From Niabella ginsenosidivorans (lineage in GTDB: Bacteria; Bacteroidota; Bacteroidia; Chitinophagales; Chitinophagaceae), in the NCBI RefSeq assembly GCF_001654455.1, contig NZ_CP015772.1, forward strand, positions 4,712,001 to 4,776,000: a stretch of DNA of 64,000 bases, read 5' to 3'. Below, piece by piece: positions 41,712 to 47,178 of this stretch (the first letter of the stretch is position 1; each line of letters starts with the position of its first letter). The position numbers were made by a program, and so were the translations under genes. The notes under the pieces were generated by a model. That model was not told the origin of the DNA, ran no database searches, and saw nothing but the letters and a program-made list of their open reading frames with translations.

Positions 41712-43046
41712 TTACCGTACAACAATCGCATTGCCGGCCGAATTAAGTACAGCATTCCCTAAATTAACCGGCACACCGTTTTTCCAGTATTTGGCTACCT
41801 TGCAGGTGCCGTTGTTTTCCCATCCTGATACATAAACATCATTACCAAAAACAGCAATGCCCGTAGCAGCGGAAGATGCTGTTGATAATTTTACAGGCAC
41901 ACCGTTCTTCCAGTATTTAGCAAAAGTCAGCCCGCTATGATAATAGTCTTCCTGTTCATATCCTGCCACATATACATCGTTTCCCACCACAAAAACAGCG
42001 GTGGCAACGCCTACTGAAGCAGTACCTGCGGTTAATGTTGTAGCCGTCCCGTCTTTCCAGATGGTGGCCATGGCCAACCCGGTTGTTGCATTATTTTGGC
42101 TGCCTGCCACATACTCATCGCTCCCGCTAACGAAAACAGCGTTGGCAAAGCAATGCTTATCGTTATTGGGTATGGTATTGGCCGGTATTATCCCGTTTAT
42201 AAATTCCCAGGGCGAAAACCTTCCCTGTGAGTTGCGATAATATCCAACAGCATATATATTGTTGGCACTTACACAAATACCATAGCAGGAGCCATTGCCA
42301 AGCACTGTTTGTGATATAATGGGGTCATTTACATTTACCGATATTCCTGTTCCGTTCTTCCAATACCTCGGAATGTCAAACCCGTTTACTACTTCCCAAC
42401 CACCTACGTGTACATTGTTTCCGTTTACAGCGATGGCATTGGCTACTGATGCCCCTGTGCCAAGCGTGGTTTTAACGCCGTTTTTCCAGTAGTTGGCCAA
42501 TTGTAAGTTATTTATTCTTTCACTTCCGGCTGCATACACATCATTGCCGGTTATACAAATGGAAGTCAGAGCCGATTCCTCCGTGCTTAGCGTATCAGCA
42601 GCGCCGTTTTTCCAATAGATGGCTAAAGCATGGGCAGCATTGTTTTGAGAACCTGCTACATATACATCGGGCACATAGGTAATGTTGCCGCCACTTGCGG
42701 TTTGATTGCCTGTTTTTATTTTCACTTCACCGCCGGTAGCTCCTACGGCCGGGACGATTACTTTCAACTCCGCTGCCGTAGCCGATTGTACGGTAGCTGC
42801 CACATCATTGATGGTAACGGTATTGTTGGCGGCTGTGACAGAAAAATTGCTGCCCTCAATGGTAAGCGTATCCCCATAATGCAAAGTGGTTGTCGAAAGA
42901 GCGCTTATCCTGAGCGTGGTGTCCGGTGGTGTAATGGGCGTTACCGTAATGCCATTGTCTTTTTTGCAGGAAACCAATACAGACAGGTACAGCGCAAATG
43001 CTGCATAAGCTGCGGTGGTAAGGATGCTGCGGTTCATTGTTTTCAT
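41712..43046 (-). CDS. Lipoprotein with IPT/TIG domain and seven propeller-like repeats
   Basis: This is a 444-residue surface lipoprotein (lipobox LVSC about residue 27). An IPT/TIG immunoglobulin-like domain follows (ISALSTTTLHYGDTLTIEGSNFS..., about 47-125). The rest is built of seven repeats of about 42-52 residues with the pattern VYVAG...A.YWKNG....L......AI.V.GND, each ending NDVYVAG-like. Seven such blades fit a beta-propeller. The partner LamG protein gene ends 19 bases upstream, so both probably form a unit. Ligand unknown. Confidence 0.8.
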   Translation of the reverse strand: MKTMNRSILTTAAYAAFALYLSVLVSCKKDNGITVTPITPPDTTLRISALSTTTLHYGDTLTIEGSNFSVTAANNTVTINDVAATVQSATAAELKVIVPAVGATGGEVKIKTGNQTASGGNITYVPDVYVAGSQNNAAHALAIYWKNGAADTLSTEESALTSICITGNDVYAAGSERINNLQLANYWKNGVKTTLGTGASVANAIAVNGNNVHVGGWEVVNGFDIPRYWKNGTGISVNVNDPIISQTVLGNGSCYGICVSANNIYAVGYYRNSQGRFSPWEFINGIIPANTIPNNDKHCFANAVFVSGSDEYVAGSQNNATTGLAMATIWKDGTATTLTAGTASVGVATAVFVVGNDVYVAGYEQEDYYHSGLTFAKYWKNGVPVKLSTASSAATGIAVFGNDVYVSGWENNGTCKVAKYWKNGVPVNLGNAVLNSAGNAIVVR

Positions 43047-43065: not shown

Positions 43066-44226
43066 TTATTGTTCTTTTATGGCCTGTATTATTTTACTGT
43101 ATGCTTTTGTTCCGTCTTTATCTACCTGCGCTATCCGTATGTAAATGTTACCGGGCATACCACGCTGTATTTCGCCGGAAGTTTTAGTACAGGAAATAAA
43201 CGTGCTCACAAAAAATACCACGGCAGGCAGATGACGGTTTCTTTTACATACCGGCAATAACAGCATGGCCAGCAGGCCAAAACCGGCAACGCTCAAACTG
43301 GTCATATTAAGGCTGAAGCTGTATTGTACGGGCGTATCTGAATTGCCGGTCCCGGATTTTAGCGTTCCTATTTCTTTAAACAGTTTGCCATCTGATGAAG
43401 CCTCAATGACAAACCGGTCGTTATTTTTTTCTGTAAGGCAGGTAAAATTTACCTGCAAAGCATTTCCTTTTATAACTGCTGCAACATTTCCAAAAGTTAC
43501 AGGTAGCCCGCTGTCGCCGGTAATAAGGGACAATGCCTGTAATTCAGTATCCTTCAATGCACGATTGTAAATGCGCACTTCGTCTATCATGCCATCGCTG
43601 TATTCGTCGGGGCCACTTAGGCTGCGCCCGATAGCATAGGTATTTACAGTATCCGAGCTAAAGACTTCGTGGTATTCTTTAGAACCAATCAGGTTGCCGT
43701 CCACATAAAATTTTGCAGTGTCCGTGAGCTTGCTATATGTTGCCGCAAGATGATGCCATTCGTTGAAGTTCCATGGATAATCACAACCGATGTAATTGGT
43801 ATTGTAGCCCGACTCGAACAAAATCCCTCCGGAGGCCCAGTTGGCCTCCAGCAGCACCGAACCCCAGTCGTTATTTGGATCGTATTGTTCAAAAACAGCA
43901 AACACATTCCAGTTGTTGTACCAGTTGCGGATATTGATCCAGGCGGCAATCGTTACTTCTCCGGACGTATAAATTTTGGAGAGCGAAGGGCTTGCCGGTA
44001 TCTCTATATAAGCACCCGTACCGTTAAAATCATACGCTGCATTTGCGGTGTTATTTCTATCAGCGGTAAGTGCAGCATTATGTACGATGCCGTTGTTGTC
44101 ATTGCCGCTTGCATCATTGGCATTACCGTTGAAGGGCAGATAAAGCAACAGGCTGTCGTTAATAGCCTGTGCCCGTAACGATTGCACTGATAGCACCAAA
44201 AAAAGCAGCGCAAAAATGCGTTTCAT
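43066..44226 (-). CDS. Secreted LamG-domain protein with an interrupted C-terminal domain
   Basis: This protein of about 386 residues has a signal peptide (MKRIFALLFLVLSVQSLRAQ) and a LamG/concanavalin-like lectin domain (LLLYLPFNGNANDASGNDN to MIDEVRIYNRAL, about 27-225). A beta-rich C-terminal domain starts at about 241 (LPVTFGNVAAVIKG..., NDRFVIEASSDGKLFKEIG), similar to the domain preceding T9SS signals. It is then split by two hydrophobic segments (313-327 and 333-346) around KRNRH, the second ending in a lipobox-like ISC, before its last strands NIYIRIAQVDKDGTKAYSKI. ATG 44226 chosen for its signal peptide. Unit with the propeller lipoprotein. Confidence 0.8.
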   Translation of the reverse strand: MKRIFALLFLVLSVQSLRAQAINDSLLLYLPFNGNANDASGNDNNGIVHNAALTADRNNTANAAYDFNGTGAYIEIPASPSLSKIYTSGEVTIAAWINIRNWYNNWNVFAVFEQYDPNNDWGSVLLEANWASGGILFESGYNTNYIGCDYPWNFNEWHHLAATYSKLTDTAKFYVDGNLIGSKEYHEVFSSDTVNTYAIGRSLSGPDEYSDGMIDEVRIYNRALKDTELQALSLITGDSGLPVTFGNVAAVIKGNALQVNFTCLTEKNNDRFVIEASSDGKLFKEIGTLKSGTGNSDTPVQYSFSLNMTSLSVAGFGLLAMLLLPVCKRNRHLPAVVFFVSTFISCTKTSGEIQRGMPGNIYIRIAQVDKDGTKAYSKIIQAIKEQ

Positions 44227-44623: not shown

Positions 44624-46564
44624 ATGAAAAAAATTTTGCTGATAGTATTCCTTGGTCTCAGTACTATGACCTGTGTTGCACAGGGATTATTAAAAAAAGA
44701 CAGCTTGCTGAAACTATTGGCCGCCGCAAAAGATGATACAGCAAAAGTGTTATTATATATAAACATTGGCAACCAATATGAAATGGATGATCCGCAAGTC
44801 GCCGGGAAATATTACCAAATGGCTGGCAATCTGAGCAAACACCTTCACCACAAATTAGGTATTATAAAATACATCTCAAACTATACGGCCATTCTTAATA
44901 TGGCCGGTAAATTCGATAGCGCATTATTATTAAACAAACAATCTTTTCAGATTGCAAGGGAATTAAATAACAAATTATATATTGCTAAAACAGCAGCCAA
45001 TATTGGTAATAGTTTTAATTATTTAAGCGAATACGATAGTGCCATTTATTATTACGAAACTGCAGGAAAATATTTTGAAGATATGGGTAACAACTACCTT
45101 TTGGCCAGGATGTATGAAATGGAGCAACTTGTTTACCAAAATATGAACCAGCACAAAAAAGCGCTGCAATATGGAGAAAAAGCGGTAAAAGAGTTAAGAA
45201 TTTCAGGAGACAGTATTGATTTAGGTAGATGCCTGCTTAACCTTGCTAATAGTTATCAAGGCAATAATTTTCCCGACTCTGCACTGAGCTGTTATAAAGA
45301 AGCGTTGATCATTTCACAAAAAACAAATTATGCACAGGGGGAAGCAGCCAGCCTTTTGGGTATCGGTAATATTTATTTTCACCGCTATGATGCAGACCAA
45401 ATGAAGCCTTGCTTTGAAAAAGCGCTTGCAATATCACAGCAATTAGGCGATCCGCAAGGTCAGTTAATAGCATCAAGAGGCATGGCGCTTTATTATCTTT
45501 TAAAAAAGGAGCTGAATAAGGCAAAAATATATTGTGCCGCTTCCGTAAAATTAGCCGATAGTTTAGGTACAAAATATGATAAATATGAGTCGATGCATGT
45601 CTTGTCTTCTATATTTTATGCACAGCATGATATTATAGAAGCTGAAAAAACAAGGGACAAAATGCAGGTGTTAGAAAACGAAATTAGAGGAGACGAGTTG
45701 CAACAGAAAACCATTTCAATAGAAAAGAAGTTTGAAACCGAGAAAAAGGAAGCACAGATAAAATTGCAGCAAACACAACTCAGGCAAAAAACTATGCTCA
45801 ATTATTTGCTTTTTGTCGGGGCCGGGGCCCTACTGCTTATATCGCTGCTGGGCTACCGCAATCATCGCAACAGGCAAAAACTGCAACAGGCAAAGATTGA
45901 TGAGCTTGAAACCGAAAAAAGGCTTACTGCTACCGAAGCTGTACTATTAGGGGAAGAACAGGAGCGCACGCGCCTCGCAAGAGACCTGCACGACGGGCTG
46001 GGCGGCATGTTGAGCGGTATAAAATTTTCATTAAGCAATATGAAAGAGAATTTAATTATGACGCCTGACAATGCGCAGGCTTTTGAGCGCAGCATGGATA
46101 TGCTGGACAGCTCCATAAGGGAGATGCGCCGTGTGGCGCATAATATGATGCCCGAAATGCTGGTAAAATACGGATTGGATACAGCGCTGAAAGAGTTTTG
46201 CGATGAAATAACCCGCAGCGGCGTTACAACGGTGAACTATCAATCCGTTGCCATGCAGGACGCGGTCCTGGGGCAAACGCAATCCGTTACCATATATCGC
46301 ATTGTGCAGGAGCTGGTAAACAATGCCATTAAACACGCCAATGCTCATAATGTGCTGGTGCAACTGCACCTGCACAGGCAGGAGCGATTGCTGGCCGTAA
46401 CCGTAGAGAACAACGGCAGCGGGTTTGATACCAGGGCAATGACAGATACGGGCGGCATAGGCTGGAAAAATATCCAGAGCCGTGTAAATTTTTTACAGGG
46501 TAAGTTAGATATACAATCTGCTCCCGACAGCGGCACCTCCGTAATGATAGAAATTAATATCTGA
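44624..46564 (+). CDS. TPR-containing sensor histidine kinase (HisKA_3 type)
   Basis: This 646-residue kinase has a signal peptide (ending MTCVAQG), about seven tetratricopeptide repeats in the periplasm (residues ~30-350), a short coiled coil, one membrane helix (about 391-410, YLLFVGAGALLLISLLGY), another coiled coil, the HisKA_3 phosphoacceptor RDLHDGLGG (His about 456) and an ATPase domain (VQELVNNAIKHANAH, NNGSGFDTRAM, GGIGWKNIQSRV). It should pass signals to the LuxR-type regulator whose ATG overlaps its stop. The first ~1150 bases are clearly more A/T-rich than the last ~780. Confidence 0.93.
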   Translation: MKKILLIVFLGLSTMTCVAQGLLKKDSLLKLLAAAKDDTAKVLLYINIGNQYEMDDPQVAGKYYQMAGNLSKHLHHKLGIIKYISNYTAILNMAGKFDSALLLNKQSFQIARELNNKLYIAKTAANIGNSFNYLSEYDSAIYYYETAGKYFEDMGNNYLLARMYEMEQLVYQNMNQHKKALQYGEKAVKELRISGDSIDLGRCLLNLANSYQGNNFPDSALSCYKEALIISQKTNYAQGEAASLLGIGNIYFHRYDADQMKPCFEKALAISQQLGDPQGQLIASRGMALYYLLKKELNKAKIYCAASVKLADSLGTKYDKYESMHVLSSIFYAQHDIIEAEKTRDKMQVLENEIRGDELQQKTISIEKKFETEKKEAQIKLQQTQLRQKTMLNYLLFVGAGALLLISLLGYRNHRNRQKLQQAKIDELETEKRLTATEAVLLGEEQERTRLARDLHDGLGGMLSGIKFSLSNMKENLIMTPDNAQAFERSMDMLDSSIREMRRVAHNMMPEMLVKYGLDTALKEFCDEITRSGVTTVNYQSVAMQDAVLGQTQSVTIYRIVQELVNNAIKHANAHNVLVQLHLHRQERLLAVTVENNGSGFDTRAMTDTGGIGWKNIQSRVNFLQGKLDIQSAPDSGTSVMIEINI

Positions 46565-47178
46565 TGGCGGTAAGTATTTTTATAGTAGATGACCATTATA
46601 TGGTAATTGAAGGCATCCGTTCTTTATTGCAGCATGAAAAGGAAATGGACTGGCTGGGGCATGCCACCAATGCCATGTCCTGCCTCAGCTTTCTAAGACA
46701 ACAGCAGCCGGATATTATACTCATGGATGTGAGCCTGCCCGATAAAAACGGCACGGAACTGTGCAAAGAAGTAAAGCTGCTGTATCCTTCAGTATTTGTA
46801 TTGGGCCTCAGCACATTTAACCAGCAGGCAGTTATCCGCAATATGATAGAAAACGGCGCATCGGGGTATGTGCTCAAAAACGCATCTAAAGAAGAATTGC
46901 TCGAAGCCATTGCGGCGGTAATAAAAGGCAAAACTTATTTAAGCCATGAAGCTGCGCTTTCCATGAAGGAAACGGTCAAAGATATTCCCCTTATTACCCG
47001 AAGGGAAAAGGAAATTCTGGCCCTCATTGCCGAAGGGCTTACCAACGCGGAAATATCCGAAAAGTTATTCATCAGTATTCCCACCGTAAACACGCATCGC
47101 AGAAGCCTTCTGGAAAAATTTGATGTAAAAAACACCGCTACGCTTATTGGCAGGGCAATAAAGACGGGATTGATATAA
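46564..47178 (+). CDS. Two-component response regulator, NarL/LuxR type
   Basis: This 204-residue regulator has a receiver domain (phosphoacceptor Asp55 in ILMDVSLPDKNG, acidic pair DD at 9-10, Lys in YVLKNAS) and a LuxR-type helix-turn-helix (LITRREKEILALIAEGLTN..., about 140-200). ATG 46564 overlaps the TGA of the kinase gene (ATGA-type coupling), so it is the cognate partner. Targets are unknown; the divergent LamG/propeller gene pair is a plausible candidate. Confidence 0.95.
   Translation: MAVSIFIVDDHYMVIEGIRSLLQHEKEMDWLGHATNAMSCLSFLRQQQPDIILMDVSLPDKNGTELCKEVKLLYPSVFVLGLSTFNQQAVIRNMIENGASGYVLKNASKEELLEAIAAVIKGKTYLSHEAALSMKETVKDIPLITRREKEILALIAEGLTNAEISEKLFISIPTVNTHRRSLLEKFDVKNTATLIGRAIKTGLI

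Follow-up and report, generated by a model that had tools for sequence, protein, structure and literature searches.

A candidate internal lipoprotein signal within the FnIII-like C-terminal domain of secreted proteins in Niabella and other Chitinophagaceae

The LamG gene and its surroundings

The window analyzed here is the whole 64,000-nucleotide stretch of the Niabella ginsenosidivorans genome (NZ_CP015772.1, positions 4,712,001 to 4,776,000). The gene under study is read from the minus strand as a single 386-aa frame over 44226..43066 with no internal stop codons (Table 1); the strand was the one point left unstated in the original prediction, which otherwise described the gene accurately. 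Both the signal peptide and the LamG domain that it proposed were recovered, the former followed by Gln, in keeping with the Q-rule for SPI substrates of Bacteroidetes (PMC5837995). The two hydrophobic stretches, placed by that prediction at residues 313-327 and 333-346, proved right to within a few residues, and its lipobox-like ISC is part of the FISC motif.

Table 1. Coordinates of the LamG gene and of the features of its predicted product
Feature	Coordinates	Strand	Residues	Remarks
Whole gene	43066..44226	-	386 aa	ATG at 44226, stop 43068..43066
N-terminal signal peptide MKRIFALLFLVLSVQSLRA, then Q	44170..44226	-		Sec/SPI type, +1 Gln
LamG passenger	43540..44025	-	68-229	Laminin_G_3 PF13385, Pfam match E 7.4e-27
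FnIII-like domain, first part (strands A-E), LPVTFG...YSFSLN	43306..43506	-	241-307	
TM1 SLSVAGFGLLAMLLLPV	43249..43299	-	310-326	predicted stop-transfer segment
Basic loop CKRNRH	43231..43248	-	327-332	n-region of the putative internal signal
TM2 LPAVVFFVSTFIS	43192..43230	-	333-345	h-region of the putative internal lipoprotein signal
Lipobox FISC	43189..43200	-	invariant Cys 346	Cys codon 43189..43191
Predicted 41-aa lipoprotein tail CTKTSGEI...KEQ	43069..43191	-	last FnIII strands 360-383	

By the positive-inside rule, the CKRNRH loop would be cytoplasmic, and the predicted LspA cut falls between residues 345 and 346. After FISC, the protein continues with IYIRIAQVDKDGTKAYSKIIQAI and ends with the FnIII-like domain itself, without a T9SS CTD.

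The gene at 41712..43046, also on the minus strand and 19 bp downstream, encodes a lipoprotein with an N-terminal signal (MKTMNRS...LVSCKKDNG), an IPT/TIG domain, and propeller-like repeats; together with the LamG gene, it probably forms an operon. On the other side, the LamG gene is adjoined by a divergent pair of genes (44624..47178, plus strand) for a TPR-histidine kinase (HisKA_3) and a LuxR-type response regulator.

An FnIII-like sandwich with a hydrophobic hairpin in place of a loop

The AlphaFold model of the C-terminal domain consists of strands at model residues 5-69 and 124-147 that flank a low-confidence insert and form one sandwich (block pLDDT 86-96 before the insert, 49-62 within it, and 93-95 after it). 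In the structure comparison, solved FnIII-type domains match the whole model, residues 1-148, with Z about 9-10; no Pfam FnIII sequence match to the domain was found. Homologues lacking the insert are encoded in other genera, for example, ...YSFTDTKPLPGLNQYRLKQLDKDGKTTYSKIVQV, followed by a T9SS-type tail, and have a short loop exactly at the insert position. Aligned with these relatives, the insert takes the place of the E-F loop, and the tail corresponds to the domain's F-G end. Thus, the C-terminal domain is an FnIII-like sandwich in which the E-F loop is replaced by TM1, a basic loop, and TM2 with a lipobox. The FnIII-like domain that precedes Bacteroidota T9SS CTDs shares the same pattern (LPV.F...ERS.DG..F..IG...S.A..GNS...L.YSF ... 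Y.R..Q.DKDG...YS), but has a short E-F loop and is followed by a T9SS-type tail, whereas the window domain carries the hairpin as its loop and forms the end of the protein. Two further claims of the original prediction, that the beta-domain resembles those found before T9SS signals and that its last strands follow the insert, are borne out by these alignments.

The lipobox Cys is conserved in 66/66 aligned homologues (30-55% identity to the query); no other column of the insert is invariant, and the hydrophobic columns around the Cys are nearly random across the same alignment. The residue at -1 is S, A, or G in 63 of the 66 homologues, and Lys occupies +3 in 62. The loop before TM2 contains 3.7 Lys/Arg on average and no acidic residues (64/64), the TM2 h-region is uncharged in 61/64, the distance from the Cys to the C-terminus is 38-43 residues, and TM1 contains a conserved Gly in 48/65. 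The 60 external rows of the alignment were found by a tail motif around YIRIxQVDK; the conservation of the tail is therefore biased by selection, but that of the Cys, which is outside this pattern, is not. The set of N-terminal signals used as a control is too mixed to give a clean lipobox yardstick. The signals of the passengers are of the ordinary SPI kind: a crude scan detected one in 46 of 64, 43 of them with Q after a small residue, as in the Q-rule (PMC5837995).

Several features of type II lipoprotein signals, namely, an invariant Cys with G/A/S at -1, a basic n-region, and an uncharged h-region, are present in the insert, which shares them with the signals handled by Lgt, LspA, and Lol. 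Unlike the usual type II signal, the putative one here is found within a domain, some 310-345 residues from the start of an already exported protein, and follows a putative stop-transfer helix. Judging from the alignment, the insert appears to be a complete type II signal peptide inside a protein. The original prediction noticed the ISC but did not carry it to its main consequence: TM2 would be a full lipoprotein signal peptide, which predicts two chains. The genome encodes LspA, with two PF01252 matches above the cut-off (E 3e-33 and 4e-29); the LspA-family genes are located at 3577752-3578180 and 4692704-4693285, and the frame of the second, at 243 aa, is unusually long. The tail has no obvious acidic signal for surface export directly after the Cys.

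Decisive support for this reading comes from five genomes in two other genera of the Chitinophagaceae, g9 (loci L124, L125, and L184) and g98 (L183 and L188), which encode the same domain in two neighboring genes. Strand E is immediately followed by the end of gene 1 (..RYQQKVHLGF, ..SYQIKLNY, and ..FDYTINYSW, each followed by the stop codon), so that gene 1 terminates exactly before the hairpin position, and TM1 is absent from the two-gene forms. Gene 2, which starts 3-100 bp further on, encodes a lipoprotein of 51-64 aa consisting of an N-terminal signal, a lipobox, and only the F-G strands (e.g., MKTTIATTLFFLSALFLLSSC...). The signal is therefore at the N-terminus of its chain in the two-gene form and internal in the one-gene form. 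Between the two g9 species represented by L124 and L125, Ka is 0.05 and Ks 1.4 for gene 2 (Ka/Ks about 0.04), compared with 0.11 and 1.3 for the half domain and 0.29 and 1.6 for the passenger; in g98, Ka is about 0.22-0.25 for both genes, with synonymous sites saturated. Given these values, gene 2 is a real gene under purifying selection. The g98 loci combine a secreted passenger that looks hydrolase-like by eye with a lipoprotein of about 52 aa; no Pfam match was obtained for the L183 passenger.

The L184 pair was modelled as one chain, with the TAA replaced by a Gly linker and with an alignment of one-gene homologues; such a model is an aid and not proof of binding. AlphaFold returned a complete sandwich in which the gene 2 strands have a pLDDT of about 95, and FnIII-type structures match over the domain with Z about 10-12. 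The domain is too short for a tree that would order the one-gene and two-gene forms.

Distribution of the domain and the type IX secretion system

Six paralogues with the same arrangement and 36-43% identity are encoded in the same genome (5.63 Mb, one contig); together with the invariant Cys of the alignment, they show that the arrangement is more than chance. Their passengers differ: LamG, an NHL propeller, and DUF285 are among them, and others have no Pfam name; G8 is also found among the passengers of the family, which are adhesion-, repeat-, or enzyme-like. In a profile search, 14 of the 16 other genomes of the genus contained 2 to 62 copies, and the remaining two (G008 and G016) lack both the domain and the T9SS. 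A few copies were detected in other Chitinophagaceae (the Ferruginibacter-labelled MAGs L045 and L057, as well as G318 and G410), and the two-segment insert is kept in the 66 aligned homologues. Outside the family, the order- and phylum-wide searches yielded only insert-free tails among the best 16-21 candidates per genome. Because the family-, order-, and phylum-wide searches covered the best 13-21 candidates per genome, with at most 150 in the closest set, the actual range may be wider. No plasmid relatives were found. Candidate L007 was discarded as a spurious match (E 0.17) with a stop.

Niabella genomes also contain broken copies of the tail region (L255, L256, L257, L258, and L259). These short ORFs with the tail were considered as two-gene forms and rejected, as they look like decayed copies. 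Such remnants suggest rapid gain and loss of insert-domain genes.

The NCBIfam entry NF058595, 'invert_tail', is described as a lipo-invert putative C-terminal anchoring domain of 113 positions. The TM1-loop-TM2-lipobox segment of the window family aligns to about positions 24-75 of this profile, and the remaining 38 or so positions correspond to the same tail length. At E<0.01, NF058595 matches 9 of the 66 members with 13-21 bits, a range in which hydrophobic segments alone can give weak matches; the best score, 20.7 bits (L034), compares with a curated cut-off of 37, which no listed score reaches, and no match at E<=0.01 is listed for the window domain. By these weak matches, the general kind of domain appears to have been named already by a curator as lipo-invert. 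Compared by description, the entry's short text mentions neither the split sandwich nor the two-gene form. Literature searches turned up no paper on NF058595 and no precedent for the split sandwich, the two-gene form, or the link to the T9SS.

SprA was detected in none of the 17 genomes of the genus and in 18/18 other relatives. Of the 17 genomes, 15 have no T9SS CTD and the other two have a single one, and Por_Secre_tail (PF18962) has no match in the N. ginsenosidivorans genome or in the window protein. The whole genus seems to lack a type IX secretion system, whereas all sampled neighbors have one; we found no paper stating this. With no CTD in the protein and no SprA in the genus, the window protein was rejected as T9SS cargo. 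The prediction of a hairpin membrane insert that acts as a processing signal distinct from the T9SS is thus well supported, given also the 66 homologues.

Large numbers of the one-gene form occur only in this genus, which lacks the T9SS. Since SprA is absent from these genomes, the insert device may take the place of T9SS anchoring in them. Carriers of the domain outside the genus, however, keep SprA, so that the device predates the loss of the T9SS or is independent of it. Strict replacement of the T9SS is weakened by these carriers and by G008 and G016; expansion after the loss appears to be the simplest reading.

Proposed mechanism and alternative explanations

We propose that Sec exports the passenger first, whereupon TM1 would halt translocation and return the chain to the cytoplasmic side, and TM2 would then re-enter the translocon as an internal lipoprotein signal. 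Because the chain must regain the cytoplasmic side before a lipoprotein signal, TM1 would be needed in the one-gene form; its absence from the two-gene form fits a role confined to resetting topology. Lgt would then lipidate the Cys and LspA would cut before it, yielding the passenger with an unfinished sandwich and a lipoprotein of about 40 residues, the two or three strands of which would finish the sandwich. The passenger would be clamped non-covalently to its lipid anchor, with the outer membrane, reached by Lol transport, as the most likely site. A hairpin kept on the passenger after the LspA cut would conflict with a tail in the outer membrane, except where the hairpin is cut off or the complex reaches across the periplasm; the conserved TM1 Gly may mark such a second cut. 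Overall, we think it probable that LspA splits the protein and that the passenger is anchored by the lipidated tail, which completes its fold.

Other readings account for parts of the same anatomy. Two hydrophobic segments with a basic loop make a normal helical hairpin, and the insert might be an uncleaved double-span anchor holding a single chain in the inner membrane, with the Cys kept for some other reason. We consider this unlikely: such an anchor needs neither an invariant Cys nor a small residue at -1 nor Lys at +3; the two-gene forms lack TM1, and the same Cys there ends an N-terminal signal peptide; and any lipidated signal of this sort should be cleaved by LspA. It also seems quite unlikely that the one-gene form is a bridge, with the hairpin holding the passenger half in the inner membrane, the lipidated tail in the outer membrane, and the sandwich tethering both. 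Such a bridge would follow from LspA cleavage if the hairpin stays, and the hairpin is retained in 66 homologues, but it is missing from the two-gene forms, hence bridging is not a function shared by the two, and many passengers (LamG, NHL, G8, DUF285) would fit a surface location better.

A sorting tag of the exosortase, sortase, or rhombosortase type, in which TM1 and the following Lys/Arg would be the recognized signal and the rest a by-product, is very unlikely in our view. TM1 followed by Arg/Lys does resemble such tails, there are weak sub-threshold matches to the LPXTG_anchor and PEP_CTERM profiles, and an intramembrane protease could use the conserved TM1 Gly. No exosortase, however, was detected above the cut-off in 17/17 genomes of the genus (that of N. 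ginsenosidivorans has only a sub-threshold match in a 137-aa frame), and the protein was rejected as an exosortase substrate on this ground; moreover, no conserved cleavage motif precedes TM1, and the conserved elements, the Cys and the strands, come after it. The fusion of two ORFs, raised as an option in the original prediction, holds insofar as two-gene versions exist in other genera. As an artefact, a fusion or frameshift of two unrelated ORFs, it is almost certainly wrong: the reading frame runs uninterrupted in this gene and in dozens of paralogues from independent assemblies, which contradicts a sequencing or assembly fusion, and the tail strands share homology with the end of this domain in proteins that lack the insert. 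The two outcomes that were to speak against the insert, a lack of homologues sharing it and a clean gene boundary at its position in close relatives, turned out differently: the insert occurs in the 66 aligned homologues, and the boundary does exist but delimits two conserved genes, supporting a split product.

The proposed anchoring through fold complementation would resemble donor-strand complementation in the Porphyromonas type V fimbriae (Mfa/FimA; PMC4789730), where a fold is likewise finished by strands of another chain and the precursors are lipoproteins. The cases differ in that no polymer or arginine-specific protease step is known here, and the donor would be a tiny lipoprotein dedicated to one partner.

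More broadly, we see about an even chance that these proteins represent a new way of lipid anchoring, in which the anchor resides on a 'clip' lipoprotein of about 40 residues that completes the fold of its partner and is supplied either by a neighboring gene or by the tail of the same gene, in which case LspA would free it by a cut at an internal signal. After its loss of the T9SS, a Bacteroidota genus would have multiplied the one-gene form, which took over domains that once preceded T9SS tails. If so, lipoprotein signals need not be N-terminal, and predictors that scan only the first residues would miss classes of lipid-anchored proteins, here with up to 62 copies per genome. There would also be a naturally split protein pair that can be compared with a one-gene counterpart, as well as a simple tool for lipid anchoring of proteins in trans, and bacteria without the T9SS would have an anchoring route of their own.
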